Translations under genes and position numbers: made by a program
In this document: positions 1,266 through 16,925 of the stretch, in pieces
Position numbering within the stretch: position 1 is the stretch's first letter
Layout of the letters: each line of letters opens with the position of its first letter
Assembly: GCF_000964225.1 (NCBI RefSeq)
Contig: NZ_BAMZ01000012.1
Location: 1-64,000, forward strand
DNA length: 64,000 nucleotides
Source of the DNA: Acetobacter syzygii
GTDB lineage: Bacteria > Pseudomonadota > Alphaproteobacteria > Acetobacterales > Acetobacteraceae
Reading direction: 5' to 3'
Notes under the pieces: model-generated
Database searches by the model: none
Told to the model about the DNA's origin: nothing
The model's input: the letters and a program-made list of their open reading frames with translations, nothing else

Positions 1266-1322
1266 TATTGTATGAAAAAGAATGACACTCTCCACGTGGC
1301 CATAAGATTATTGTATGGTTGC
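1266..1322 (+). promoter_or_regulatory. Candidate MocR operators in the regulator/HPP promoter
   Basis: ATATTGTATG lies at 1266-1275 and TATTGTATGGTTG at 1310-1322, the latter overlapping the regulator start codon. The same 10-mer recurs at 2926-2935 and, inverted, at 3000-3009 in front of the nitrilase cluster. Two direct copies about 44 bases apart resemble the direct-repeat operators of MocR-family autoregulation. The motif is seen directly; binding is inferred. Confidence 0.5.
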
Positions 1323-2763
1323 AATGGCGGGAATATTTAAATTTGTATGGAGACGCCTTGTGCCGCAACGTAATTATCTTGCGCAGTGGAAAGACGAGAT
1401 CAGTCGCAGCCCTAATGCTATTTATCTGACACTGGCGGATTCACTGGCCCTTTCCATTCGGAAAGGAGATTTACAGGAAGGAGATAAACTTCCACCACAG
1501 CGGATTATTGCGGACTATCTTGGCACAAACCTTACGACCGTGACCCGCGCTTTTACCGAGGCCAGACGCCGCGGCCTGATTGATGCTACTGTGGGTCGTG
1601 GTACATTCGTGCGCGTTGGTGCAGGGGAAAGCCATTGGCGGCATACTGGGCCAGCAGTTGTTGACCTGACCATGAACCTGCCGCCCATTCCACAGGATCC
1701 TCCGCTACAGAGACTTATACAGAATGATATAACAACCATTCTAAAGCAACAGGATTTGAACAGCCTTATGTCTTACCGGGTGACTGGTGGCACATTGGAA
1801 GAGCGTCAACTGGGTGCAAAATGGATTGCCCCTGTGATTGGTCAGCGGCGTACTGACGAGGTTCTTGTCTCTCCTGGTACACAAAGTGCGCTGGCTGCGA
1901 TTGTGAGCACACACACCCAACCAGGCGATATTATAGTTACAGACCGCATCGCCTACCCAGGTATTCGTACCATTGCCGCGCAGTTTGGACTTATCCTTGT
2001 CGGTGTAGAGAGTGATGGGGAGGGTATGATACCCGATCAACTCGATCGGATTTGTGCGGAGCACCACCCGCGATTACTTTATTGTATTCCAACCATTCAT
2101 AACCCAACAACAGCGACCATGTCGTTACAACGACGCAAGGATATTCTGGCTGTCGCACACCGGTACCACCTGCATATTGCCGAAGATGACCCCTATAGCC
2201 TGCTTATGGACAACCCTCTGCCAGCCTTGGCTGCTTTAGATCATAGCCGTGTGAGTTATGTGGCAACACTTGCAAAAACACTTAGCCCTGGTCTGCGCAC
2301 CGCGTATGTAGCACTGCCTAATGCAGACATGACACGAAGAGTTGCTGCGGCCATACGAGCGATTGCACTGACCAATGCTGGTTTGCTGAGTGCGCTAACA
2401 GCCCGATGGATGCAGACCGGGCAAGCCCACATAATTTTACAGGCAATTCGGAAGGAGTTACGCCTGCGCCAGGCCATTGCCCGTAAGGTTTTGGGGGAAG
2501 GGCACTGTATGAATGCAGATGGCCCACATGTGTGGTTAAAGCTGCCAGAGTGGTGGGGAAGTGCAGATTTTGTTGCGTATGCACGCAGGCGAGGTCTTGC
2601 GCTGGTTCCAAGTAATGTTTTTACCATCAGTGGCGAACCGCCTCAGCGGGCGAGAATTGCGCTTGGCAGTGCGCCTGATGCGACAAGTCTGGAGGAATCC
2701 CTACAAGGGGTAATGTCGATCTTGCAGCACAAACGTTCACCCGGTTTTGCAGATATTGTGTGA
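1315..2763 (+). CDS. MocR/PdxR-type regulator (GntR HTH fused to aminotransferase)
   Basis: This 482-aa chimera has a GntR winged helix at residues 37-100 (DKLPPQR, LGTNLTTVTRAF, GRGTFV), a linker, and a fold-type I PLP aminotransferase domain from about 130 to the end. PLP-site residues are visible: N263 in HNPT, D291/Y294 in DDPYS and Schiff-base K321 in ATLAKTLSPG. Length is typical of MocR proteins, which sense PLP or an amino-group ligand and both repress their own gene and activate a neighbour. ATG codons at 1315 and 1324 are both possible. It sits between the HPP gene and the nitrilase cluster, and a shared repeat motif links its promoter to that cluster, so it is the likely regulator of both. 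The ligand is unknown. Confidence 0.9.
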   Translation: MVAMAGIFKFVWRRLVPQRNYLAQWKDEISRSPNAIYLTLADSLALSIRKGDLQEGDKLPPQRIIADYLGTNLTTVTRAFTEARRRGLIDATVGRGTFVRVGAGESHWRHTGPAVVDLTMNLPPIPQDPPLQRLIQNDITTILKQQDLNSLMSYRVTGGTLEERQLGAKWIAPVIGQRRTDEVLVSPGTQSALAAIVSTHTQPGDIIVTDRIAYPGIRTIAAQFGLILVGVESDGEGMIPDQLDRICAEHHPRLLYCIPTIHNPTTATMSLQRRKDILAVAHRYHLHIAEDDPYSLLMDNPLPALAALDHSRVSYVATLAKTLSPGLRTAYVALPNADMTRRVAAAIRAIALTNAGLLSALTARWMQTGQAHIILQAIRKELRLRQAIARKVLGEGHCMNADGPHVWLKLPEWWGSADFVAYARRRGLALVPSNVFTISGEPPQRARIALGSAPDATSLEESLQGVMSILQHKRSPGFADIV

Positions 2764-2925
2764 TCAGATTCCAGCGTTTGGAATCGTCTTTGCTCTCTTT
2801 TTTAGCCAGAAGAAAACTCTTGCGGGCAAAACAAAAAGAGTCAGCGTTCACAAAAGCGCGATCTCAAAGTCTTTGCAAAACAGCCAATTATGGGATTTTC
2901 TAGTGATTGTCTGACCTTCATATCG

Positions 2926-3009
2926 ATATTGTATGGTTGTGTTGGTGTAAGATAATGGTTTTGTGAATGTTTTGTTTTTTTTGTACCACTTGAGTTTAGC
3001 ATACAATAT
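2926..3009 (+). promoter_or_regulatory. Candidate operator region of the nitrilase cluster
   Basis: The 336-base gap 2764-3099 separates the MocR-type gene from the cluster. It holds ATATTGTATG at 2926-2935 (extended to ATTGTATGGTTG, identical to 12 bases at 1311-1322) and its reverse complement CATACAATAT at 3000-3009. I see no gene in the gap. The repeated motif marks the likely binding sites of the upstream MocR regulator; this is inferred from the repeat pattern. Confidence 0.5.
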
Positions 3010-3099: not shown

Positions 3100-3582
3100 A
3101 TGCCGGAAGTCACACATGCTCCGCATAAAGATGGCGACTGCTTCGTTAATTATGAAAATAAGGTTTTTGAAGATGTCAAAGCTGAAGCTGGTGAAAAAGC
3201 CCTTATTACCTTCCACACCGTTGCTAACGAAGGTTCCGTTGGATTTGTAAATCTTCTGCAAGCAACACGTTTAATCCGCAAGGGGTTTGAAACATCCGTA
3301 CTGTTGTATGGACCAGGTGTAACTCTGGGAGTGCAGCGTGGTTTTCCGCGTCTTGGTGATGAAGCATTTCCGGGGCATATGAACTGTAACAAACAGATTG
3401 CTAAAATTCTTGAAGAAGGAGGTAAGGTTTACGCCTGTCGTTTTGCACTGCAAGCGCTTTACGGTTATGGCGAACATAATCTGATCCCCGGTATTACACC
3501 AATCAATCCGCAGGACGTGCTGGATATTATCCTGCTTGCACGGCGAGATAACGCATTCATTCTCAATACTTGGACTCTCTAA
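3100..3582 (+). CDS. MSMEG_0572/Sll0783-family nitrogen starvation response protein
   Basis: A 160-aa protein that opens the nitrilase cluster. The sequence matches the Sll0783/MSMEG_0572 family from memory: the segment around [20 protein letters not shown] and [20 protein letters not shown] is characteristic. The pattern suggests a DsrE-like alpha/beta fold (inference). In Synechocystis, Sll0783 is induced by nitrogen starvation and is needed for polyhydroxybutyrate accumulation; its chemistry is unknown. An in-frame TTG start exists at 3010, but the ATG at 3100 directly follows GGGAGAG and gives the normal family length. The next gene starts 24 bases downstream. There is no signal peptide. 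Confidence 0.88.
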
Positions 3583-3606
3583 AATTTAAAGGGGAGGACC
3601 GCCGGT

Positions 3607-4590
3607 ATGTCTCGCATTGTTCGCGCTGCGGCTATTCAAATCAGTCCTGTTTTGGATGATGATGGTCTGGGTACTGCACGAAAAGTCTGTAAGGCTATTT
3701 ATGAAGCCGCTGAAAAAAGTGTGAAGCTGGCGGTTTTTCCTGAAACTTTTGTACCATATTACCCCTATTTTTCCTTTATCCAGCCTGCATTTCGTTTTGG
3801 TGCAGAACATCTCAAACTTTACGAGCGGGCAGTTACTATACCGGGCCCGGTCACAGATATGGTTGCGGAAGCTGCACGAGAGACAGATATGGTTGTTGTG
3901 CTTGGTGTTAACGAGCGCGACTATGGCACGTTGTACAACACGCAAATTATCTTTGATTCTACGGGAGAGATACTTCTCAAGCGTCGCAAAATTACTCCAA
4001 CATACCACGAACGCATGGTTTGGGGGCAGGGTGATGGTTCTGGCCTGACAGTTGTTGAAAGCGCTGCTGGCCGCATTGGGGCGTTGGCCTGCTGGGAGCA
4101 CTACAACCCTCTGGCGCGTTACGCATTGATGACACAGCATGAGGAAATCCACTGTGCGCAGTTCCCTGGCTCTCTTGTAGGCCAGATCTTTGCCGATCAG
4201 ATGGAAGTCACCATTCGTCATCATGCCTTGGAATCTGGCTGTTTTGTTGTGAATGCCACAGGATGGTTGACAGAAGAGCAGATTAAAAAAATTGCATATG
4301 ACCCTGCGCTGGAAGGACCATTACGTGGGGGGTGCTTTACAGCCATTGTCTCGCCCGAAGGTAAATTGTTGGCTACACCGCTGACGGAAGGTGAAGGCAT
4401 GGTCATTGCAGACCTTGATTTTACTCTTATTACCAAGCGCAAACGGATGATGGACTCAGTCGGGCATTATGCACGACCTGAATTATTGAGCCTGCTCCAT
4501 AACCGGCAGCCCGCCATACCTGTGCATTACACGGATGAACCAGAACTGGAATCGCGCATTCGTCCGGTTGTGAGCCGGGGGGAGCCATGA
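3607..4590 (+). CDS. Nit6803-family nitrilase (Nit1C cluster)
   Basis: A 327-aa carbon-nitrogen hydrolase that should convert a nitrile to its carboxylic acid and ammonia. The catalytic triad is visible: E46 in FPETF, K128 in KRRKITPT and nucleophile C162 in [10 protein letters not shown]. Length is normal for a nitrilase. The start ATG at 3607 follows AGGGGAGGA. Gene order and relatedness place it in the Nit6803/NitC group, of which cyanobacterial members accept several nitriles and Pseudomonas members are needed for growth on cyanide through the Nit1C cluster. The stop overlaps the next start (ATGA), so it is translationally coupled to the radical SAM gene. The in vivo nitrile is not known. 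Confidence 0.95.
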
Positions 4591-5693
4591 CTATTCCAAC
4601 ACTTGGCACACTTTCGGGCCGCAAACTTATTACTGACCTGCAGTCTTTTGGTTTGCAAATTGATGAGGGTGCATCTGGTATTTCCCGCAAGGGGGGGGCT
4701 GGCCCTTCTGACCATAAGACAATTACCATTGCTGGCCACACCATTATGGTGCCTGTTTATACTTCTGGTGCGCGTAGCTCTCCTTTTCAGGCGAGCCCGC
4801 CAGATACGAGTGGTGCCAGTATCTTGCTGCGTGATGGCCAAAATCTGGGATTAATCCAGTTTCCTGCTGCCCCGCGTTTTTATGGTCTCAGCACGGCAGA
4901 CGGCGTTCCCTATTGGAAAATTGCGTTGCTGCATGGACGTGATACGTTGGCGACCACAGTGCACCAGACCTGCATCCGTTATGCTGACAGAAGGACATCC
5001 TGCCAGTTTTGCGCAATCGGTCAATCGTTGGAAGCCGACCGTACGATTGCCTACAAAACACCTGCACAGCTTGCTGAAGTTGCCAAAGCTGCAGTCGAGC
5101 TGGATGGCGTGCGAGATATGGTGTTAACAACCGGCACGCCTAATGTGGTTGATAGAGGGGCAGCTGTGCTGACGGCCTCGGCCCAAGCGATCCGTGCCGC
5201 AGTCAAATTACCGCTTCAGGTACAGTGCGAACCACCACGTGATCATGAGTGGTTTGAGCGCCTGCGTGATGCGGGAGCGGACAGTCTGGGAATGCATCTC
5301 GAAGCAGCAACACAAGCCGTGCGTGAAAGGATTATGCCCGGCAAAGCTACAGTCAGTGTTGAGCGTTACATGGCTGCTTTTGCCAGTGCCGTGCCGATAT
5401 TTGGGCGCGGGCAGGTCAATACGTATATTCTTGCCGGTCTGGGGGATAGTGCGCAGGACATTCTTGCCTTGGCAGAACGCCTGATAGTGCTGGGCGTTTA
5501 TCCTTTTGTAGTGCCTTTTGTGCCTATTTCAGGAACACCTTTGGAAAATCATGCCCCTCCTTCATCCGATTTTATGAAATCGGTTCTGGCTCCTCTGGGG
5601 CGGATGCTGCGTGAAGCAAATATGAAGTCTACCGATATACGGGCAGGATGTGGCCGATGTGGAGCCTGCTCCTCGCTCTCGGTCTATGAGTGA
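4587..5693 (+). CDS. MSMEG_0568-family radical SAM protein
   Basis: A 368-aa radical SAM enzyme. The likely [4Fe-4S] ligands are C129, C139 and C142, giving a CX9CX2C spacing ([15 protein letters not shown]) rather than the usual CX3CX2C. A second Cys-rich motif lies at the extreme C-terminus (GCGRCGACS), which could bind an auxiliary cluster. Between them are radical-SAM-like beta-strand motifs such as MVLTTGTPN and [12 protein letters not shown]. Family and cluster position match MSMEG_0568. It starts by ATGA overlap with the nitrilase and ends by overlap with the GNAT gene. The reaction is unknown; radical chemistry on a nitrile- or purine-like intermediate is speculation. Confidence 0.9.
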
Positions 5694-6256
5694 TGCTTAC
5701 AATGTTTGATAGCATACAAAACCGGCTTTTTGCTCCCATGGAATTTGTAGTGGGCATTGCCCGTACACCATGGGAACGCCATGCTTACCATAGGTTGCGT
5801 CAGCAAGTTTTCTGCAACGAACAGCAGATTTTTATGGATGATGATTATGATGAGGTCGATCTGACCGCCATTCCTATCATTGCAACTTGCTACATGGCGG
5901 GAATGCCGGATCAAATTGTAGGTGCAGTGCGTATTCATGAAAGCGTACCCGGTATCTGGCATGGTTCTCGTCTGGCGGTTCATGCCGAACACCGCAAACT
6001 AGGTCGAATTGGAGCCGAGCTTATTCGTATGGCTGTAAGCACAGCTCACGGACTGGGAGCCAGACAGTTCTTTGCGCAAGTGCAGGAACAGAATGTATTG
6101 TTCTTTCGACGCTTGCATTGGAAGAGCCTTGGGGTAACGACCTTGCACGGCTTGCTGCACCACAATATGGAGGCTGATCTTTCCCGCTATCCGGCACATG
6201 GTCGTGACCAGACTTGGTTGCTCCGACCGCAGCCTTGCCCCCGGCAGGTGGCATAA
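5693..6256 (+). CDS. MSMEG_0567-family GNAT N-acetyltransferase
   Basis: A 187-aa GNAT-fold protein. The acetyl-CoA binding region is visible as SRLAVHAEHRKLGRIGAELI (about residues 91-110), the classic RLxVxxxxRxxxxGxxL pattern, followed by a FAQVQEQN-like strand. The family is the N-terminal acetyltransferase that in some bacteria is fused to the AIR-synthase-like protein; here the two are separate but adjacent. ATG at 5693 overlaps the preceding stop (TGATG), and ATG at 5702 is also possible. Its stop overlaps the next ATG (TAATG). The acyl acceptor is unknown. Confidence 0.88.
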   Translation: MLTMFDSIQNRLFAPMEFVVGIARTPWERHAYHRLRQQVFCNEQQIFMDDDYDEVDLTAIPIIATCYMAGMPDQIVGAVRIHESVPGIWHGSRLAVHAEHRKLGRIGAELIRMAVSTAHGLGARQFFAQVQEQNVLFFRRLHWKSLGVTTLHGLLHHNMEADLSRYPAHGRDQTWLLRPQPCPRQVA

Positions 6257-7227
6257 TGACGCGCAAACTGACCTCATTGTTGCGAGCACTCCGGAATAGT
6301 CGTGCTTTTGTAGGAAAGCAGGATATTGCCTATGCTGCGACCATTCTTGGTCAGGCTGGTCAAAAATCCATTCGTCTAGGTGATGATTGCGCGGCCATCC
6401 CGGATGGGGATGGTTATCTTCTGCTGGCCAGTGAAGGATTCCAGGATAGTTTTGTTCGCGCTATGCCCTGGTTTGCAGGATATTGCGGCGTAATGGTCAA
6501 TGTTAGCGATATTGCAGCCATGGGTGGCCGGCCGGTGGCTGTGGTAGATGCGTTGTGGAGCGATACATCAGAGGCGGCGGCAACTATTCTCACAGGCCTT
6601 AACGATGGCGCACAAACCTATAATGTGCCAGTCGTGGGCGGGCACACCAATATACGCAGTAGCCATAATTCACTGTCAGTTGCCATCTTGGGGCGTGCCA
6701 AACGCTTACTGACCAGCTTTGATGCCAAATCGGACGAAATGCTGATTGCTGCCATTGATCTGCGGGGGCATTGGCATGATCCGCATCCATTCTGGGATGC
6801 CAGTTCAAGCCATCGTGGATCTGATGGCAGAAATCGTTTGAGGGCAGACCTCGAAGTGCTGCCAAGTATAGCAGATGATGGATTAAGCCATTCTGCCAAG
6901 GACATTAGCATGGCAGGATTATTGGGTACGGCTCTTATGCTGTCTGAATGTTCTGGCATAGGCATGACCATTGCACTGGAAAACATTCCTCGCCCGGCCA
7001 ATGCGCCAATGGAACGTTGGCTGGCCGCATTTCCCAGTTATGGTTTTTTGCTAACGACTCAGTCTGAAAATGCTGGGGCAATTATGGCGCGGTTTCATGA
7101 GCGTGGCATAGCTGCAGCTATCATTGGTCAATGCAATAGTACACAGCGCCTGACTGTAACATGGGAAGGTGAACAGGAGGTTTTCTGGAATCTCGCAAAC
7201 GTGCCGTTCATGGGGGTGGGGTCTTGA
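6256..7227 (+). CDS. Sll0787-family AIR-synthase-like protein
   Basis: A 323-aa member of the PurM/AIR synthase-related superfamily, ATP-binding proteins that include PurM, PurL, HypE, SelD and ThiL. An N-terminal SIRLGDDCAAIPDGDGYLL motif and VNVSDIAAMGGRPVAVVDAL are typical of the ATP/Mg site, and GLLGTALMLSECSGIGMTI of the C-terminal half. The ATG at 6256 overlaps the GNAT stop; a 14-codon longer TTG start (6214) is in frame but less likely. It presumably phosphorylates or activates an amide, formyl or carboxyl group of the pathway intermediate. The stop overlaps the TTG start of the glycosyltransferase. Confidence 0.88.
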   Translation: MTRKLTSLLRALRNSRAFVGKQDIAYAATILGQAGQKSIRLGDDCAAIPDGDGYLLLASEGFQDSFVRAMPWFAGYCGVMVNVSDIAAMGGRPVAVVDALWSDTSEAAATILTGLNDGAQTYNVPVVGGHTNIRSSHNSLSVAILGRAKRLLTSFDAKSDEMLIAAIDLRGHWHDPHPFWDASSSHRGSDGRNRLRADLEVLPSIADDGLSHSAKDISMAGLLGTALMLSECSGIGMTIALENIPRPANAPMERWLAAFPSYGFLLTTQSENAGAIMARFHERGIAAAIIGQCNSTQRLTVTWEGEQEVFWNLANVPFMGVGS

Positions 7228-8408
7228 GATTCTCCATTGGCATTTTAGTCCATTCGACAAATCCACGTGGAGGCGTTGTGCATGGTATGGCATTGGCCGA
7301 GGCTCTATGTGATGCTGGACATAATGCTACTTTGATCGCTCCCGATATAACGGGGAATGGTTTTTACCGCTTGCCGCGTTGTGCAACCCGCTACATTCCG
7401 GCAAAGCCGGAGGCAGACTTACCCCAATTAGTGGAACGACGTATTGTCGAGATCACAAATGCACTGCGGCATAATGCGCCATTTGATGTGTTGCATGCTC
7501 AGGATCCGATGAGTGCGAATGCATTAGCCAATTTGGTGCAGGAAGGTCGGCTACGAGGGTTTGCCAGAACGGTTCACCATCTGGATTGTTTCTCTCATCC
7601 AGATGTTGCTGCCCGTCAAACACGAGGGTTTATGGCAGCGGCAGAGGTTTTTACTGTAAGTGGACTTTGGCAGGACGCTTTATTTTCCAAATATGGACTT
7701 AAAACATCCGTTGTCGGTAATGGAGTTGATCTGGCAAGATTTTCTCCAAAACCTGAATTCTCTGACCATACGCTTCGTGCACGTTATAATCTACCAGCTA
7801 AAGTGCGCTTTATCCTGTCGGTTGGTGGTGTAGAACGTCGTAAAAATACTCTTTTGTTATTAAAAGCTTTTGAGGTTCTGCATAAGAATTATCCAGATGT
7901 ACATCTTGTTATAGCTGGAGGTGCATCCCTGCTGGATCACTCGGAATATCGTAGGTTGTGCGAAGCGCAGATTCAAAGCAGTAATTTGGCTAAAGCCGTA
8001 ACTATAACAGGTACAGTTGCGGATGATGATATGCCTGCATTCTACCGTCAGGCCTCCGTGCTTGCGTATCCATCACAAACAGAAGGTTTTGGCTTATGTC
8101 CATTAGAGGCATTGGCTTGTGGAACCCCAGTGGTCGTGCCGGATATAGCTCCGTTTACAGAGCATTTCCGCTCCAATGAGGTGTTCTGGTGCCAGCCGGA
8201 ATCTTCGGAAACCCTTGTTTATGCGTTGCGTGAGGCCCTGATTGCCGGTTGTTTAGAGCATTTTCGGGTTAGTGGCCCCGCAACGGCTTGCCGTTTCGAT
8301 TGGCACCGCGTTGCCAGTCGTCACCTCCATGCTTACCAGCGCCTGGCATCATTGCCACCGGCTGCTGGTGCACCTGATTCAGGAGTTTTGCAGCAATGCC
8401 TGAAATGA
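7224..8408 (+). CDS. MSMEG_0565-family GT4 glycosyltransferase
   Basis: A 394-aa GT-B glycosyltransferase of family GT4. The N-terminal acceptor domain begins MRFSIGILVHSTNPRGGVVHGMALAEAL. The donor domain includes FILSVGGVERRKNTLLLLKAF (around 195-215) and the GT4 signature YPSQTEGFGLCPLEALACGTPVV (about 285-307) with the E-x7-E motif. The start is TTG at 7224, overlapping the previous stop; no later ATG would keep the first beta strand. The product of the cluster may therefore be glycosylated, with unknown sugar donor and acceptor. The 3' end overlaps the next gene by 13 bases. Confidence 0.9.
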   Translation: MRFSIGILVHSTNPRGGVVHGMALAEALCDAGHNATLIAPDITGNGFYRLPRCATRYIPAKPEADLPQLVERRIVEITNALRHNAPFDVLHAQDPMSANALANLVQEGRLRGFARTVHHLDCFSHPDVAARQTRGFMAAAEVFTVSGLWQDALFSKYGLKTSVVGNGVDLARFSPKPEFSDHTLRARYNLPAKVRFILSVGGVERRKNTLLLLKAFEVLHKNYPDVHLVIAGGASLLDHSEYRRLCEAQIQSSNLAKAVTITGTVADDDMPAFYRQASVLAYPSQTEGFGLCPLEALACGTPVVVPDIAPFTEHFRSNEVFWCQPESSETLVYALREALIAGCLEHFRVSGPATACRFDWHRVASRHLHAYQRLASLPPAAGAPDSGVLQQCLK

Positions 8409-8683
8409 CATTTCGCGTGCGTTGGCCGGATGGAAAAGAGAGTGACTGTTACTCTCCATCTCTGGTTATACGGGAGCACTTTACACCAGGTCAGACTTAT
8501 TCAGTCAGTGATTTCCTTCAAAAATCTGCGGTTGCACTAACAGAAGCCAGTGAACGTGTTCGTGCACAATATGGCTTTCCATGCAGTCGTGCTCTGGGGC
8601 AGTTGCAGGCCATTCGGCAGACTGGTGCTCAGTTTCATGCTCTTTCTGACGCGAAAGTAAGTATTCTGTCCTTTAAATTTTGA
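8396..8683 (+). CDS. MSMEG_0570-family small protein of the nitrilase cluster
   Basis: A 95-aa protein that starts inside the glycosyltransferase gene (13-base overlap). The N-terminus MPEMTFRVRWPDG and the CYSPSLVI segment mark the MSMEG_0570 family, a small 'nitrogen starvation response' protein found only in this kind of cluster. It has no membrane segment and no catalytic motif I can name. It may be a partner or scaffold for one of the enzymes. Family call is from recognised sequence; role is unknown. Confidence 0.85.
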   Translation: MPEMTFRVRWPDGKESDCYSPSLVIREHFTPGQTYSVSDFLQKSAVALTEASERVRAQYGFPCSRALGQLQAIRQTGAQFHALSDAKVSILSFKF

Positions 8684-8699
8684 AACGAAAAGAACAACC

Positions 8700-9947
8700 A
8701 TGTCACAAAGCGAAAAAAGCATCCCTGTTATAATCGTGGGAGGGGGGCAGGCTGGCTTATCCATGAGCTGGTATCTTTGCCGTGAGCAGGTGGAACATAT
8801 TGTTTTTGAGGCAAAAACAGCCTGTCATTCATGGGAAGATGAAAGGTGGGATAATTTTTGTCTGGTAACACCCAACTGGCAATGCAAACTGCCAGGCCAT
8901 CCTTACAAAGGGAATGATCCGAACGGCTTTATGGTGAAGCAGGAAATTATCGATTACGTGCAGGAATTTGTTACCTCATTTAATCCGCCTTTGCACGAAA
9001 ATACAGTGGTTACCTCAATTACCCGCCATGAAGATGGTGGTTACCGCGTGGTAGCTAACGGAGCACTTTGGCATGCAAAACATGTAGTTATTGCATCAGG
9101 TGCATATCAAGATGCAGTAATCCCCGGTTATGCCAGTGCAATTGATCCCTCCATTTTCCAGATCCATTCACAGGATTACCGCAATGTCTCACAGTTACCT
9201 CAAGGTGCGGTACTGGTTGTGGGGAGCGGGCAATCTGGTGCGCAGATTGTGGAAGATATATTCCTTGAAAAGCGTAAAGTTCACCTTTGCGTTGGATCTG
9301 CACCTCGTGTCTCACGCTTTTATCGTGGTCGCGATGTGGTGGACTGGCTTGCAGATATGAATTTTTATGATCTGACCGTGGACAAACATCCATTACGGGA
9401 TGGTGCGCGTGACAAGACCAACCATTACGTTACAGGTCGTAACGGCGGTCATGACCTCGATTTGAGGTTGTTCGCCAAGGAAGGTGTTGGTCTGCATGGC
9501 ACACTGGAGACAATCCGTGATGAAGTGGCGCATTTTAGGCCAGATTTGAAGGAAAACCTTGATGATGCAGATAAAACCAATGCAGACATCAAAAAATCTA
9601 TTGATGCCTACATTACACGCGAAGGCATTATAGCTCCAACTGAAATGCCGTATGTTCCCATGTGGGAACCAAACGGGAACAATACTCCGCTGGATCTAAA
9701 AGCTGCTGGAATCACGTCAATTATCTGGTGTATCGGTTTTCGTCCCGATTACCGGTGGATTGATGTGCCGGTTTTTAACGGAGCCAATAAGCCTGTCTGG
9801 CATCGGGGAGTAACAGATGCTCCGGGCTTCTACTTTCTGGGCTTGCCATGGTTGCATACATGGGGATCGGGACGGTTTTCTGGTGTGTCCCGTGATGCCG
9901 CATGGCTTACCAGCCAGATCACTGGCAGAAATGTTCCTGTAGCCTGA
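8700..9947 (+). CDS. MSMEG_0569-family flavin-dependent oxidoreductase
   Basis: A 415-aa flavoprotein of the FAD/NAD(P)H monooxygenase-like (FMO/BVMO-related) superfamily. The FAD Rossmann motif is near the N-terminus (IIVGGGQAGLSMSWYL, residues 10-25). The NAD(P)H-binding motif is near 176 (VLVVGSGQSGAQIVEDI). GFRPDYRWI and FYFLGLPWLHTWGSGRFSGV near the end are typical of this group. It is the NitH-type enzyme of Nit1C clusters. It follows the small gene by 16 bases. It probably oxygenates or dehydrogenates the cluster intermediate, on an unknown substrate. Confidence 0.9.
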   Translation: MSQSEKSIPVIIVGGGQAGLSMSWYLCREQVEHIVFEAKTACHSWEDERWDNFCLVTPNWQCKLPGHPYKGNDPNGFMVKQEIIDYVQEFVTSFNPPLHENTVVTSITRHEDGGYRVVANGALWHAKHVVIASGAYQDAVIPGYASAIDPSIFQIHSQDYRNVSQLPQGAVLVVGSGQSGAQIVEDIFLEKRKVHLCVGSAPRVSRFYRGRDVVDWLADMNFYDLTVDKHPLRDGARDKTNHYVTGRNGGHDLDLRLFAKEGVGLHGTLETIRDEVAHFRPDLKENLDDADKTNADIKKSIDAYITREGIIAPTEMPYVPMWEPNGNNTPLDLKAAGITSIIWCIGFRPDYRWIDVPVFNGANKPVWHRGVTDAPGFYFLGLPWLHTWGSGRFSGVSRDAAWLTSQITGRNVPVA

Positions 9948-9961
9948 GCGGAGAAAGACCG

Positions 9962-11734
9962 GTGCTTCCATGGACAACTTACGAGGATATGTACAATGCA
10001 GCTCGACACCAGCCGGAGCAATTCTGGCTGGACGCAGCGCAACGCATAACATGGAAGCGCGAACCAGAAATTGCGAGCAGAAAGCGGGAAGATGGTTGGT
10101 ATGACTGGTTTTCCGGTGCGACGCTTAATACCTGTTACAATGCCGTGGACCGACACGTTGAAAACGAACGTGGTGAACAACCAGCTCTCATCTGGCATTC
10201 CTCTGCGGCTAACGCATGTCAAATTGTTACTTACCGGGAATTGCAGGGCAGGGTGGCCGGATTTGCCGGAGGTTTGCAATCGCTAGGAGTGGAAAAAGGA
10301 GATCGTGTTCTAATTGCCATGCCGACCATGGTGGAAACGGTTATTGCCATGTTGGCTTGTGCACGGATTGGGGCAATACATGTGGTCGTTTTTGCTGGCT
10401 ACGCTGGACCTGAACTTGCGCATAGAATTGATGATGTCACACCTAAGGTTATCATATTCGCAAGTTATTATTTTCAGAATCTAAAGCAGATTTCCTCATT
10501 GCCTGTTTTAAATGCTGCATTGGCGCAAGCGGCACATAAACCTGATGCTTGTATCATTGTACATCGTAGCAAAGACTCTACACCATTTTCCCCTTCCGTG
10601 ACCTACGATTTTCACATGCTGGAGCAATCCTCTCCAGCCACGCCACTTGTGCTCCGTGCGGAAGATCCTCTTTATATTTTGCATACATCGGGAACGACTG
10701 GTAACCCCAAAGGGATTGTGCGCGATAATGGTGGCCATGCTGTAGCAATGGCTTTGTCCATGGAATTAATTTACGGCTGCCAGCCAGGCGATATTTTTTT
10801 TACAACGTCCGATTTAGGCTGGGTTGTCGGGCATTCCTATGGTGTTTACGCCCCTCTGATCAGCGGTTGCACAAGTATCCTTATTGAAGGCGGCGCATCC
10901 CCTTCAACCATTCACGGATTGTGCGATAAGCACAAGGTGCAATGCCTTTTTACAACGCCCACTCAGTTACGACTCATACGGCAGGAAAGTCGCAACCTGT
11001 CACACTTACATTTGGCTTCCCCGGCTAAAGTTTTTGTTGCTGGAGAATATGCAGAACCGACCTTACTGGATTGGGCGCGGTCCTATTTTCAGCGACCTGT
11101 GGTAAATCATTGGTGGCAGACGGAAACAGGATGGAGCATTACTGCTCATTTTTTTGGGTTGCCTGAAGCCGAACCTGCTGCCCTGATGAACGACATAGGA
11201 CGCCCAGCACCGGGATTTGATATGTTTATTGTTCCATCCATACCGGATGAAGAATGCGGCGAGATTCGGCTATCATTACCGTTACCGCCGGGATGCCTGG
11301 CTGGTGTGTGGAAGAATGAAACTAGTCACATCCCAACGTCTTATCTTGATGGGAGAGGTCAACACTATCGGACGTTTGATGAAGGCATGATTGATCAAAG
11401 GTATGCTTTGCATATGTTAGGTCGCTCCGATGATGTTATTAAAGTTTCCGGGCGACGGATTTCTGCTGTGCAGATTGAAAAAATTATTGCTGCACACCCG
11501 ACTGTGGCTGTCTGTGCAGTAATTTCAGTACCAGATGCTTTAAGAGGACATCGGCCTGTTGCATATGTGGTTCCTGTAAATGATATAGAAAATATACCCT
11601 CTTCTCAGGAAATTATTGCTCAAGTCAGCCACGATCTGGGTAAATGGACTGGATTAAGAGAGGTTCATTTTGTAAATTATTTACCAATGACAGTGTCTGG
11701 AAAAATAAAACGGCGAGATTTGTCCATCTGTTAA
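9962..11734 (+). CDS. Acyl-CoA synthetase, PrpE/Acs-like (AMP-binding)
   Basis: A member of the ANL superfamily of about 590 aa, ending the nitrilase cluster. The phosphate-binding loop is ILHTSGTTGNPKG, followed by IVRDNGGHAVAM, a block typical of propionyl-CoA synthetases. WWQTETGWSI, GRSDDVIKVSGRRI and the catalytic lysine in VSGKIKRRDL are all present, so it should be active. I prefer the GTG at 9962, 15 bases after the flavoprotein stop and preceded by GGAGAAAG, which leads into the expected WTTYEDMY. An in-frame ATG at 9902 would overlap the upstream gene by 46 bases. It would activate a small carboxylate, plausibly the acid released by the nitrilase, as CoA thioester or adenylate. Confidence 0.88.
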   Translation: MLPWTTYEDMYNAARHQPEQFWLDAAQRITWKREPEIASRKREDGWYDWFSGATLNTCYNAVDRHVENERGEQPALIWHSSAANACQIVTYRELQGRVAGFAGGLQSLGVEKGDRVLIAMPTMVETVIAMLACARIGAIHVVVFAGYAGPELAHRIDDVTPKVIIFASYYFQNLKQISSLPVLNAALAQAAHKPDACIIVHRSKDSTPFSPSVTYDFHMLEQSSPATPLVLRAEDPLYILHTSGTTGNPKGIVRDNGGHAVAMALSMELIYGCQPGDIFFTTSDLGWVVGHSYGVYAPLISGCTSILIEGGASPSTIHGLCDKHKVQCLFTTPTQLRLIRQESRNLSHLHLASPAKVFVAGEYAEPTLLDWARSYFQRPVVNHWWQTETGWSITAHFFGLPEAEPAALMNDIGRPAPGFDMFIVPSIPDEECGEIRLSLPLPPGCLAGVWKNETSHIPTSYLDGRGQHYRTFDEGMIDQRYALHMLGRSDDVIKVSGRRISAVQIEKIIAAHPTVAVCAVISVPDALRGHRPVAYVVPVNDIENIPSSQEIIAQVSHDLGKWTGLREVHFVNYLPMTVSGKIKRRDLSIC

Positions 11735-13270: not shown

Positions 13271-14128
13271 TTGGTCGGCACCCTAGACATTGATATTTTA
13301 AGATCTTTTACCGTTATTGCTGATATAGGCTCATTCAGTCGGGCAGCTAGCAGACTTGCAAAAACGCAGTCTGCTCTCAGTATGCAGATAAAGCGGCTTG
13401 AAGAGTTAACCGGTCACACTCTACTGCATCGTGGAGGTCGAGGTGTCACTTTGACTTCTCAAGGCGAAAAGTTGATTGGTTATGCGCGTGATATTTTAAG
13501 AATTCATGATCAGGCTTTCATGGATCTTTCCGGGCGAGGGTTGAGTGGCAGTTTAAAATTTGGTTGTCCGGATGATTATGCCGTCTGTTTTTTACCTCAA
13601 TTAGTGGGGGAGTTTACGCAACTGCATCCTTCGGTATTTATAGAAATTTTTTGTGGGACTACACAGCAACTTCATCAGAAATTGCGGCGAAACGAAATTG
13701 ATCTTGCTTTGGTTTCTGTGGAAGACAAGGCCCGGCAGGATGTGCTGAGAACAGAACACTTGGTGTGGGTCGGCCAGCCACGCTCTCCCATATGGGATAC
13801 TTCCCCTCTTCCTTTGGCGTTGAGTGAAAAAGATACATTTGACCATAAAGCCGCTATTAAAAGCCTAGAGTGTTTGAAGCGTCCTTATCGTCTTGTTTAC
13901 GCGAGTGGATCACTTGCTGGTTTGATTGCTGTCGTCCGATCTGGCCATGCTATTGCTGTTCTTACGAAATGTGCAGTTCCGGAAGATATTCAGGAATTAC
14001 CAAAAGAGGCGGGGTTGCCAGATCTCCCCACGTTAGGAATAACTCTAGCCTTCTCTGAAGGGAATAAAGATCCGCTTGTTGAAAAATTTGCATCTCATAT
14101 AGAGAAAACACTCCCTAATATTATATAA
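13271..14128 (+). CDS. LysR-family regulator, DgdR-like
   Basis: A 285-aa LysR-type regulator with an N-terminal winged HTH (LRSFTVIADIGSFSRAASRLAKTQSALSMQIKRLEE, about 10-45) and a substrate-binding domain in the remainder. The start appears to be TTG at 13271, because no ATG precedes the conserved LDIDILRSF in frame; GGAG lies just upstream. It is divergent from dgdA with a 109-base shared promoter, the arrangement of dgdR-dgdA, and so likely controls that gene in response to its amino-acid substrate. The DgdR identity is inferred from context. Confidence 0.88.
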   Translation: MVGTLDIDILRSFTVIADIGSFSRAASRLAKTQSALSMQIKRLEELTGHTLLHRGGRGVTLTSQGEKLIGYARDILRIHDQAFMDLSGRGLSGSLKFGCPDDYAVCFLPQLVGEFTQLHPSVFIEIFCGTTQQLHQKLRRNEIDLALVSVEDKARQDVLRTEHLVWVGQPRSPIWDTSPLPLALSEKDTFDHKAAIKSLECLKRPYRLVYASGSLAGLIAVVRSGHAIAVLTKCAVPEDIQELPKEAGLPDLPTLGITLAFSEGNKDPLVEKFASHIEKTLPNII

Positions 14129-14132
14129 AAAT

Positions 14133-14160
14133 CAGGCATGGTGTAATAATACCATGCCTG
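14133..14160. terminator. Bidirectional terminator between the LysR gene and catalase
   Basis: CAGGCATGGT (14133-14142) and ACCATGCCTG (14151-14160) form a perfect 10-bp stem with an 8-base loop. On the minus strand it is followed by ATTTTTATATAA, so it should end catalase transcription; the LysR transcript also runs into it. Confidence 0.75.
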
Positions 14161-14187
14161 TCTCATAGAGTATATGACAGATGGAAA

Positions 14188-15654
14188 TTAAGAACGTTTA
14201 GCTAAAACATTCTCCCGAACACGTTGACCTATGGTCTCATCAATGTTTGTCCAATATTCAAATACTCGAGAAAGAACTGGTTCTTCAACGCCCTGCAGAA
14301 TATGACCGACTATATTACTAACTAATCGGTCGCGTGCTGTATCATCCATAACACGATTGATTAACGTGTTTGCCTGACTAAAATCGTCGTCATCAGAACG
14401 TAGTGTATAAGCTGCACGCACAAACTCTCCATCCGCTTCCCATACAGCATTTTCTGGGAAATGTTTGAAATCAGCTACAGGGCCTCCCTTGGAGTTTGGT
14501 ACGTAAACTGGGTCATGTGCATCCTGAATGCGCATTGTACCGCCTTTAATATAACCATGGACAGGACAGCGAGGTGCATTAACCGGAATTTGTTTATAAT
14601 TGACGCCAAGACGAGCCCGATGGGCATCCGCGTAAGCAAATGACCGCCCTAAAAGCATCTTATCGGGCGACAGTCCAGTTCCGGGAACAAAGTTATTCGG
14701 TTCGAATGCAAGTTGCTCGATTTGGGAATGAAAGTCTGTTGGATTGCGATTAAGGGTAAGTTTGCCCACGTCGATGAGTGGGTATTCTTTATGAGGCCAT
14801 ACCTTAGTGAGGTCGAACGGATTGATGCGATATGTCTTGGCATCCTCATAAGGCATGATCTGCATTTTGAGTGTCCAACTGGGGTAATCACCTTGCTTGA
14901 TCGCCAGATATAAATCGCGCCGATGGTAGTCGGCATCAGCGCCAGCAATTTGCCCCGCTTGCTCCTGAGTTAAGCATTGAATGCCTTGATCGGTTTTAAA
15001 ATGATATTTAACCCAGAATTTTTCCCCTTTGGTATTAACCCACATGTAAGTATGGCTGGAAAAACCATCCATATGGCGCCAACTTGCTGGAATACCGCGA
15101 TCCCCCATTAACCAGGTGACCTGATGTGCTGTTTCAGGGCTAAGAGTCCAGAAATCCCACTGCATATCGTTGTCACGCAACCCGTTATCGACACGACGTT
15201 TCTGAGAATGGATGAAATGCTGAAATTTTAATGGATCGCGCACAAAGAAGATCGGTGTATTATTACCGACCATATCAAAATTACCTTGATCTGTATAAAA
15301 TTTTAATGCAAATCCACGCGGGTCTCGCCATGTATCCGGGCTTCCAGCTTCACCAGCCACGGTCGAGAACCGAGCAATAACGTCAGTTTTTGTGCCAGGT
15401 TGAAGAAAATTGGCGCACGTATAACGGCTAACGTCGTGAGTTACCTCAAACACGCCAAAAGCACCGCTACCTTTTGCATGAGGTTGACGATCTGGAATCA
15501 TTTCACGGTTAAATGCGGCCATTTGTTCAATAAGATAATGGTCCTGTAGCAAAATTGGTCCATTAGCACCGACTGTAAGTGAATGTTCGTCATTAGAAAC
15601 AGGAATACCAGATTCTGTGGTGTGTATCTTAGTTTTTGAATCATCAACAGTCAT
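14188..15654 (-). CDS. Catalase (monofunctional, small-subunit clade)
   Basis: A 488-aa heme catalase, the size of small-subunit clade 3 enzymes. Distal heme His is H59 in [10 protein letters not shown], the distal Asn lies in [13 protein letters not shown], and the proximal Tyr is in [14 protein letters not shown]. These are the core residues for 2 H2O2 to O2 plus water. The ATG at 15654 has a GGAGG site eight bases upstream; an in-frame GTG five codons earlier is part of that leader. There is no signal peptide, so it is cytosolic. The promoter region to 15863 is AT-rich and shared with the glutaminase gene, which points the other way. Confidence 0.95.
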
Positions 15655-15863
15655 AATAAGTTCCTCCACATAATGTTTTTGTTGCTGAGATTTAAACGCA
15701 TTAGATACATAGAGTGTTCATCTGAGTTTCATCACTTTTTCGAATCACATATTTTTTACATTTATTGAGTATTTATTATGCAGAACAAAAAAAGAATATC
15801 TTTTATAAATTTTTATTGTCTATTATATCATAATAATTCGAGTATTTTACAAAGGAGAAGGCT

Positions 15864-16925
15864 ATGAAAAAGAAGATATTTTCCAAAATATGTATATTTA
15901 TAGTACTTTTAAATGTCTTGTTTATCTATATTGGGAAAAATGTTTTCGCTCGAGAAAGTTCATCTCAACTATCGTCATCCACTATTCAGGAAACTATTAA
16001 TCAGGCGTATGAAAAATTTAAACCCGTTATGGATGGAGAAAATGCAAGTTACATACCATACTTAAAAAAAGCAGATGGAAAGCTTTATGGAATTTCTATT
16101 GTTACTGTAGATGGTCGAGTATTTAAGGCTGGAGATGCAGAATATAAATTTCCTATAGAATCTATTTCCAAAGTTTTTACCTTGTCTCAAGTGTTATATA
16201 AGAGTGGAGCAGAGTCTGTTCTGCATAAAATTGGTGTTAACGCAACAGGCTTGCCTTTTAATTCTGTTTTGGCAATCGAGCTTAATCAAGACAAAATAAG
16301 CGGTAGCCTACCTCCCGGCAATCCGTTGGTAAACGCAGGAGCAATTGCAACGGCTAGTTTGGTTGCTGGTCAAACATTAGATGCCAAATGGCAGAGCATA
16401 ATTGATACAGCATCTTCTTTTGCAGGCCACACTTTACACATCAATAATGATGTTTATCGATCAGAAATGGACAGTAATCAACACAATCAAGCAATAGCAA
16501 TGCTATTGCAAAGTTATGGACACCTTTACGCAAATCCAACAGAAACAGTCGATCTTTACACACGCGAGTGTTCTTATGATGTTGATGCTGTTGACCTTGC
16601 CACCATGGGTGGAACATTGGCAAATGGAGGCACAAACCCGCGCACACACACAGTTGTGGTCGACCCGGCAACAAGCGCACGTGTGCTGGCTGTTATGGCG
16701 ACTGCGGGATTATATAACACATCTGGAGAATGGCTTTTTAAAGTTGGGTTGCCCGGAAAAAGTGGGGTAGGTGGGGGAATACTTGCCGTTGTTCCTGGGA
16801 AATTTTCTATAGGAGTTTATTCTTCTCGGCTTGATAACGCTGGTAACAGTGTGAGAGGGCAGCAAGCTGTGCAGTTTATATCTGAAGCGTTGAAGGTAAA
16901 TATTTTTTCTTCAGAAGCAAGGTAA
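15864..16925 (+). CDS. glsA: Secreted serine-dependent glutaminase (GlsA family)
   Basis: A 353-aa glutaminase converting glutamine to glutamate and ammonia. Catalytic serine and lysine form an SxxK motif, S100-K103 in IESISKVF, as in beta-lactamase-like glutaminases. NPLVNAGAIAT, YTRECSYDVDAVDLATMGGTLANGGTNP and KSGVGGGILAVVPG are further family blocks. Unlike the E. coli cytosolic enzymes it has a clear Sec signal peptide (lysine-rich start, hydrophobic 10-23, probable cleavage near 29), so it probably acts in the periplasm. The 5' part is noticeably AT-rich. Start ATG at 15864 follows AAAGGAGAAGG. Periplasmic ammonia release may help acid resistance or nitrogen supply (inference). Confidence 0.93.
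   Translation: MKKKIFSKICIFIVLLNVLFIYIGKNVFARESSSQLSSSTIQETINQAYEKFKPVMDGENASYIPYLKKADGKLYGISIVTVDGRVFKAGDAEYKFPIESISKVFTLSQVLYKSGAESVLHKIGVNATGLPFNSVLAIELNQDKISGSLPPGNPLVNAGAIATASLVAGQTLDAKWQSIIDTASSFAGHTLHINNDVYRSEMDSNQHNQAIAMLLQSYGHLYANPTETVDLYTRECSYDVDAVDLATMGGTLANGGTNPRTHTVVVDPATSARVLAVMATAGLYNTSGEWLFKVGLPGKSGVGGGILAVVPGKFSIGVYSSRLDNAGNSVRGQQAVQFISEALKVNIFSSEAR

Follow-up and report, generated by a model that had tools for sequence, protein, structure and literature searches.

A PrpE-like ligase in an apparently exchangeable position behind the Nit1C gene cluster of Acetobacter syzygii suggests a dedicated acyl-donor supply

Introduction

The Nit1C gene cluster was described in 2005 and has been reported from proteobacteria, cyanobacteria and mycobacteria. 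We analyzed a copy of this cluster in a 64,000-nucleotide stretch of the Acetobacter syzygii genome (contig NZ_BAMZ01000012.1, positions 1 to 64,000), hereafter called the window, where a run of nine genes ends with a gene for an AMP-forming acyl-CoA ligase. What is this ligase doing behind Nit1C, and what does it say about the product of the cluster? An earlier note on this DNA, made from the sequence alone, had stated that no full pathway is assigned, and no paper giving the Nit1C product was found in the literature searched, most subscription journals being outside its coverage. In Mycobacterium smegmatis, the cluster genes are listed among those that respond to nitrogen starvation, and the region upstream of msmeg_0572 is bound by GlnR (PMC4222082). 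We report here that the ligase is PrpE-like and that other bacteria carry in its place enzymes with the same possible output, a propionyl (C3) thioester.

Gene content and order of the cluster

The nine plus-strand genes at 3100-11734 are all present and intact, without internal stops, and neighboring genes are spaced by -13 to +24 bases. Eight of them score above the curated NCBIfam cut-offs for the Nit1C families and the glycosyltransferase of the cluster; the ninth is the ligase. All seven core families are adjacent on one strand and the nitrilase is of the Nit6803 equivalog type, which confirms the content, order and strand given in the earlier note and its identification of the core as Nit1C.

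3100..3582, + strand: NitB, MSMEG_0572/Sll0783 family, 160 residues (TIGR04044, 273 bits, cut-off 110; start set from annotated relatives)
3607..4590, + strand: NitC, Nit6803-type nitrilase (TIGR04048, 570 bits, cut-off 503)
4587..5693, + strand: NitD, radical SAM enzyme (TIGR04043, 582 bits, cut-off 304)
5693..6256, + strand: NitE, GNAT acyltransferase (TIGR04045, 218 bits, cut-off 68; Pfam GNAT match and sub-threshold FeeM match)
6256..7227, + strand: NitF, AIR-synthase-like protein of the PurM/ThiL/SelD superfamily (TIGR04049, 425 bits, cut-off 321; Pfam AIRS and AIRS_C)
7224..8408, + strand: GT4 glycosyltransferase, MSMEG_0565 family, optional cluster member (TIGR04047, 411 bits, cut-off 260)
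8396..8683, + strand: NitG, MSMEG_0570 family, 95 residues (TIGR04042, 131 bits, cut-off 80)
8700..9947, + strand: NitH, MSMEG_0569 flavin-dependent oxidoreductase (TIGR04046, 655 bits, cut-off 498)
9962..11734, + strand: AMP-forming acyl-CoA ligase of a PrpE-like clade (ACAS_N, AMP-binding and C-terminal domains; tree and pocket residues)

The ligase start was placed at the GTG at 9962 by comparison with annotated relatives, a start at 9902 being set aside, and the gene therefore does not overlap the flavoprotein gene. Compared with the Nit1C clusters (nitBCDEFGH) of Pseudomonas, Synechocystis, Burkholderia and other bacteria, the window keeps the complete set of seven core genes, arranged B-C-D-E-F-(GT4)-G-H, and adds the GT4 gene, known from Burkholderia, and the PrpE-like ligase (PMC1199592, PMC11049912).

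The position 3' of the flavoprotein gene

To compare this position between bacteria, genes were assigned by phmmer with single reference proteins in 188 loci plus the window; 146 loci remained after removal of duplicates and of loci shorter than 8 kb. For the named part of this sample, the best 80 were taken from 524 confirmed relatives, which makes it lean to close kin, and distant LnmK-like genes may escape the assignment. The slot was judged in the 123 distinct loci with a flavoprotein gene and 8.5 kb or more of sequence past the radical SAM gene. It holds the ligase in 40 loci, an LnmK-like acyltransferase/decarboxylase alone in 18, an LnmK-like gene together with a methylmalonyl-CoA mutase gene in 9, and on a Klebsiella plasmid another PrpE-like ligase (1 locus); 55 loci have neither, and none has two kinds. 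When neighboring open reading frames on the same strand 3' of the cluster were clustered, the ligase, LnmK-like, mutase and cydA genes were the only families to exceed 7 loci.

One LnmK-like protein and one mutase, both from locus L035, were scored with family models. The former reached 301 bits with TIGR04099 (Pnap_2097; cut-off 125) and 271 bits with the LnmK model TIGR04098 (cut-off 100), and the latter 955 bits with the methylmalonyl-CoA mutase equivalog (cut-off 876). A tyrosine invariant in all 14 LnmK-like proteins compared faces, in a very weak stretch of the alignment (0.3 bits), the LnmK tyrosine that we take to be catalytic. The LnmK family is unrelated to the window ligase and its reaction is a methylmalonyl-CoA decarboxylation, with a predicted delivery of propionyl from the same 3' slot. 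In leinamycin-type clusters, lnmKLM installs a propionyl-derived branch (PMC9396626). Since all the slot enzymes could, judging from their families, give a propionyl thioester, we infer that the slot is one for acyl-donor supply, probably for the N-acyltransferase of the cluster.

Within the Acetobacteraceae, the ligase follows the cluster in 42 of the 50 Nit1C-bearing genomes with enough context (53 over the cut-off minus two with too little context and G039), which argues against a chance arrangement. The other eight have an LnmK-like gene (one) or neither (seven), so the check suggested in the earlier note, whether the ligase is always present in this family, gave a negative answer. The LnmK-like gene was found in 1 of 52 searched Nit1C-bearing Acetobacteraceae, G053; its genus relatives G179, G217 and G249 carry the ligase, and the whole cluster of G053 is of another lineage.

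Identity of the ligase

The ligase scores 521 and 477 bits with PrpE models versus 449 and 439 bits with Acs models. It shares with PrpE the domain layout, Ala386 and Trp414; however, it has only 37% identity to E. coli PrpE, forms its own clade, and lies under the NCBIfam equivalog cut-offs of both PrpE (TIGR02316; 477 bits, cut-off 827) and Acs (439 bits, cut-off 725). In an unrooted tree of 40 rows, the 13 ligases from Nit1C loci (nit ligases) form one clade (100/100) within a 23-row clade (100/99), which holds plasmid and genomic proteins, several of them annotated as propionyl-CoA synthetase. Canonical PrpE and Acs make up two other clades, and PrpE is nearer to the nit ligases by path; in a tree without a root, any two of the three clades could be sisters. 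The window ligase thus lies outside the Acs clade, among proteins annotated as propionyl-CoA synthetase, and we assign it to a PrpE-like wider group. The Klebsiella ligase, for which PrpE models likewise outscore Acs models, groups on a long branch with canonical PrpE (100/96) and was probably, though not certainly, recruited separately.

The substrate pocket points the same way. At position 386 (Acs numbering), all 13 nit ligases have Ala, as does the Klebsiella ligase; of the 14 other non-Acs rows, 13 have Ala and the last one Gly, versus Val in 11 of the 12 Acs-clade rows. Trp414 and Lys609 are kept together with Ala386 in 13 of 13 nit ligases, in accordance with the PrpE-like wider group, and the window ligase has neither an Acs score over the cut-off nor Val386. 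The three sites and their functional meaning follow structural work on Acs. In a PDB search, the best sequence match of the ligase was 5gxd (466 bits), versus at most 293 bits for Acs chains. The match names 5gxd only as a ligase; we presume it to be an acrylate-CoA ligase. Overall, the ligase is predicted from these features to activate propionate or another C3 acid.

Acyl supply elsewhere in the genomes

Another PrpE-type ligase of at least 647 bits with the PrpE model was found elsewhere in 0 of 6 ligase-bearing genomes versus 6 of 9 others. Methylmalonyl-CoA mutase was found in 0 of 8 ligase-bearing genomes and in 0 of 12 Acetobacteraceae overall, versus 4 of 5 LnmK-bearing genomes, and no LnmK-like gene was found in the genome of the window. 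These counts fit a supply gene that accompanies the cluster where the cell has no other way to produce the donor, with family membership and gene content confounded in the comparison. In the phylum sample, LnmK-like genes above 280 bits occur in 3 of 16 Nit1C-positive versus 0 of 382 Nit1C-negative genomes, a count that assumes that both searches drew the same 398 genomes; two weak matches (131-132 bits, cut-off 125) lie in Nit1C-negative genomes.

A MocR-type regulator and repeat boxes upstream

The nine-gene unit of the earlier note was right as far as it went and missed a tenth member. A gene for a MocR-type regulator, with a GntR domain and an aminotransferase-like domain, lies 336 bases upstream of the cluster on the same strand. 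Such a gene adjoins the cluster in at least 128 of the 134 distinct loci with enough upstream sequence (85 divergent, 43 codirectional), and the unit is therefore better read as ten genes. Two of the remaining six loci have a sigma-54 regulator, as in Pseudomonas, whose Nit1C differs from that of the window by its sigma-54-dependent NitA. The best NCBIfam match of the window regulator is EhuR, with which it shares both domains, at 363 bits and thus under the cut-off of 480.

1315..2763, + strand: MocR-type regulator, GntR DNA-binding plus aminotransferase-like domain (Pfam GntR, Aminotran_1_2)
2907..2935, + strand: putative operator, direct repeat TTGTCTG-15-TTGTATG with starts 22 bases apart (1 match in the window, 0.02 expected)
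3000..3006, + strand: putative operator, inverted box CATACAA, 71 bases past the start of the second direct repeat

The 22-base direct pair is found in 22 of 47 ligase-bearing loci (window included) versus 0 in 200 mononucleotide shuffles, and 71 bases is the commonest spacing of the inverted box in the same 47 loci (29 pairs). The sequences being related, this conservation may be due in part to descent. A different box, TTGA[TA][CTA]GCA, lies upstream in 58 of 95 loci without the ligase, versus 0.46 in shuffles, and is absent from the 47 ligase-bearing loci; the site of the regulator thus seems to have changed between lineages. MocR proteins bind pyridoxal phosphate (PLP) and amino compounds, which hints at an amine as effector of the regulator.

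Other members of the cluster

In the nitrilase NitC, Cys162 is a candidate for the catalytic residue, a role that we assume for it. The radical SAM enzyme NitD has Cys129/139/142 in a Cx9Cx2C motif and a C-terminal CxxCxxC triad, Cys355/358/361, all invariant in 9 of 9 aligned sequences including that of the window. The triad possibly holds a second iron-sulfur cluster. A sulfur-insertion role for NitD was considered but not adopted, its basis being this invariance in only nine sequences. For actinobacteria, the NCBIfam family names suggest a fusion of the GNAT and AIR-synthase-like domains.

The AlphaFold2 model of NitG (MSMEG_0570) is confident, with a predicted local distance difference test (pLDDT) score of 93; the predicted fold had no PDB match at E≤0.001, and the sequence none below E 0.39. 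WPD, YSPS and Cys63 are invariant across 47 aligned sequences of this family. The model of NitB (MSMEG_0572) had a mean pLDDT of 64 and was not used further, and a profile search of the PDB with NitB gave nothing convincing (an antibody light chain at E 0.018 and a DsrE/DsrF-like chain at E 0.78). A promoter and terminator scan was no richer than shuffles (14 versus 14.3 and 12 versus 10.6, respectively). The G+C content is 0.493 for the cluster and 0.469 for the remainder of the window, a difference that is not decisive for recent transfer.

Distribution and genomic setting

The setting of the cluster in the window (genome G000, contig C83 of our sample) looks chromosomal, with IMP dehydrogenase, tRNA and PQQ dehydrogenase genes around it; plasmids of Acetobacter and Komagataeibacter can carry the cluster as well. 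In the family sample, 53 of 397 genomes have the radical SAM marker above the cut-off (for the genus, 10 of the 14 listed); in the class and phylum samples, 10 of 385 and 16 of 398 do so, the window's own genome being counted each time. The cluster is thus patchy. A search of 72,556 plasmid records with the radical SAM gene gave 516 matches, 373 of them from Klebsiella; identity is below 60% for 28 of the 516, of which at least one (23.5%) seems to be a different radical SAM protein.

On an Acetobacter oryzoeni plasmid (L036, about 13667-15800) and in L181, the AIR-synthase-like and glycosyltransferase genes are each in two pieces. No coding sequence is annotated on that plasmid where the split genes lie, and a second plasmid of the species also matches the cluster. 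Elsewhere in the window, a glutaminase A gene (15864-16925; 440 bits, cut-off 395; G+C 0.398) lies 4 kb past the cluster and encodes another ammonia-releasing enzyme. An 803-residue protein encoded at 21265-23676 weakly resembles adenosylcobalamin-dependent ribonucleotide reductase (157 bits, cut-off 340); it may be a class II enzyme that has diverged very far, or a related protein with a different role.

Discussion

We propose that Nit1C in the window works under the MocR-type regulator, with the GT4 as a tailoring enzyme and the ligase as a dedicated acyl-CoA supply, and give this proposal, with the steps that follow, a probability of about 40%. The MocR protein would sense an amino compound through PLP and switch the operon from the putative boxes at 2907-3006. 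The PrpE-like ligase would turn propionate, or a closely similar short acid, into its CoA thioester, the GNAT would move the acyl group onto an amine, and the AIR-synthase-like protein would activate the resulting amide with ATP. The radical SAM enzyme, the flavoprotein and the nitrilase would then work on the same scaffold, with release of ammonia under nitrogen shortage. The gene content and order, the regulator linkage, the repeat boxes, the clade and pocket residue of the ligase and the occurrence in the slot, in other lineages, of enzymes with the same likely output are observed; the length of the acyl chain, the use of the thioester by the GNAT and all later steps are inferred.

Several results weigh against this proposal. 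Neither slot gene is present in 55 of the 123 loci, and no LnmK-like gene was found anywhere in 13 of the 16 Nit1C-positive genomes of the phylum sample at E 1e-20. Among the Acetobacteraceae with neither slot gene, G251 and G086 had no visible C3 source, with no PrpE-type ligase above 647 bits and no mutase; the mutase was likewise not found in G999 and G816 (Nit1C, neither slot gene), and in G053 an LnmK-like gene is present and no mutase was found. A dedicated supply gene is therefore an option, not a rule, and is not needed everywhere. G060 has no other ligase match at the 647-bit threshold, and there the ligase may serve general acid activation. The nit ligases form a third clade of the tree, and a place inside canonical PrpE was accordingly rejected. 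Ala386 is shared by the twelfth Acs-clade row, one of the two Acs-like proteins of the window's own genome, and the Acs chain 2p2b also shows Ala at this position. LnmK itself is named as a methylmalonyl-CoA:ACP (acyl carrier protein) enzyme, and no carrier protein was recognised in the cluster. Finally, the absence of any overlap between ligase and LnmK-like genes (hypergeometric 4.5e-6) makes the case look stronger than it is and was rejected as strong statistics. On the cluster tree (radical SAM plus nitrilase, 122 rows), the LnmK-like gene needs twelve changes, at least nine of them forced by well-supported branches, and the ligase only about two, so that the non-overlap counts few independent ligase events.

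An assimilation of cyanide or nitriles is a real possibility as an alternative. The nitrilase would free ammonia and a short acid from nitriles or cyanohydrins, the ligase would activate the acid for burning or use (propionate from propionitrile would suit a PrpE-like ligase), and the other genes would serve uptake, sensing or repair. The earlier note had also linked the cluster to cyanide or nitriles, a link that our results leave standing. It is the only function for which mutant evidence was found, namely in Pseudomonas, where NitC is needed for cyanide assimilation and full growth on 3-cyanoalanine (PMC8567248, PMC11049912). Similar readings recur in Antarctic, picocyanobacterial and Synechocystis studies (PMC9716671 and PMC10119275 for cyanobacteria). 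The cyanide-insensitive oxidase is of the bd type (PMC11049912), and 11 of the 146 distinct loci have cydA-type genes of bd oxidases next to the cluster: L032 (19422-22013), L036, L069, L077, L078, L097, L153, L155, L170, L212 and L215. Each of 12 Acetobacteraceae genomes searched has only one to three cydB copies, so such adjacency should be rare by chance. The 11 loci fall into three layouts: seven from Komagataeibacter and Acetobacter have the oxidase gene 3' of the cluster, three from Gluconacetobacter have it 5' and divergent, and one from Methylorubrum aminovorans has it 5' and codirectional. The first seven, however, may represent a single inherited arrangement. In addition, no cydAB adjoins the cluster in the window, whose genome has its single cydB match on another contig. 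This explanation also does not say what the radical SAM, GNAT and AIR-synthase-like genes would do, although nearly all loci have them, and the LnmK-like decarboxylases would produce a propionyl thioester rather than consume an acid. The argument of the earlier note that the ligase speaks for more than nitrile hydrolysis was, in our judgment, right.

The same note had proposed that the cluster makes a small nitrogen compound bearing a sugar. An acylation step that depends on CoA is likely, as the slot elsewhere holds other enzymes that make acyl thioesters; a glycosylated compound made for export or storage, with the ligase and the GT4 at its center, is unlikely. The GT4 overlaps its neighbors in the window and accompanies the ligase in 40 of 40 ligase-bearing loci, but 6 of the 9 loci with LnmK-like plus mutase genes lack it, as do 2 of 18 with the LnmK-like gene alone, the single Klebsiella locus (1/1) and 17 of 55 with neither (26 of 123 in all), and an earlier study had described it as inserted in Burkholderia and Rubrivivax (PMC1199592). 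Because of these absences, glycosylation would be at most a tailoring step. Less likely still, the ligase is a mere passenger, a general acetate or propionate scavenger, useful in habitats rich in acids, whose fixation next to Nit1C took place on one or two occasions. Its two or so changes on the tree would agree with this, as would the lack of another PrpE-type ligase in 6 of 6 searched ligase-bearing genomes and its lower identity to the Acetobacter and Komagataeibacter plasmid copies than that of the radical SAM core gene (70-73% versus 89-92%). Yet the ligase, by its first start codon, begins 7-17 bases past the flavoprotein gene in 25 of 40 loci and overlaps it in 13 (94 and 2154 bases off in the other two), it is retained on plasmids and chromosomes alike, and at this position the Klebsiella plasmid carries a PrpE-like ligase of a different kind.

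The proposed acyl-donor supply can be extended to an acyl-amide pathway for Nit1C as a whole, which we consider improbable when all of its parts are taken together. Here, the C3 acyl-CoA would come from the PrpE-like ligase, from the LnmK-like decarboxylase with or without the mutase, or from general metabolism, and the GNAT would put it on an amine. By analogy with PurM and HypE, the AIR-synthase-like protein and ATP would then cyclise the amide or dehydrate it to a nitrile, and the nitrilase would act on this self-made nitrile, growth on cyanide being a by-product of its reach. MSMEG_0570, with its invariant Ser20, Ser22 and Cys63, might be the partner or carrier that an LnmK-type enzyme expects.

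Taken together, the cluster is a known one, and what appears to be new is the proposed interchangeable acyl-supply slot, of which no description was found in the literature searched, and the C3 prediction that follows from its gene families. If the slot does supply a C3 donor, it would tell which acyl-CoA suits the GNAT, which isotope label to use and which metabolite to seek. It would also caution against inferring cyanide use from the presence of the cluster, as is proposed for Pseudomonas genomes (PMC11049912).

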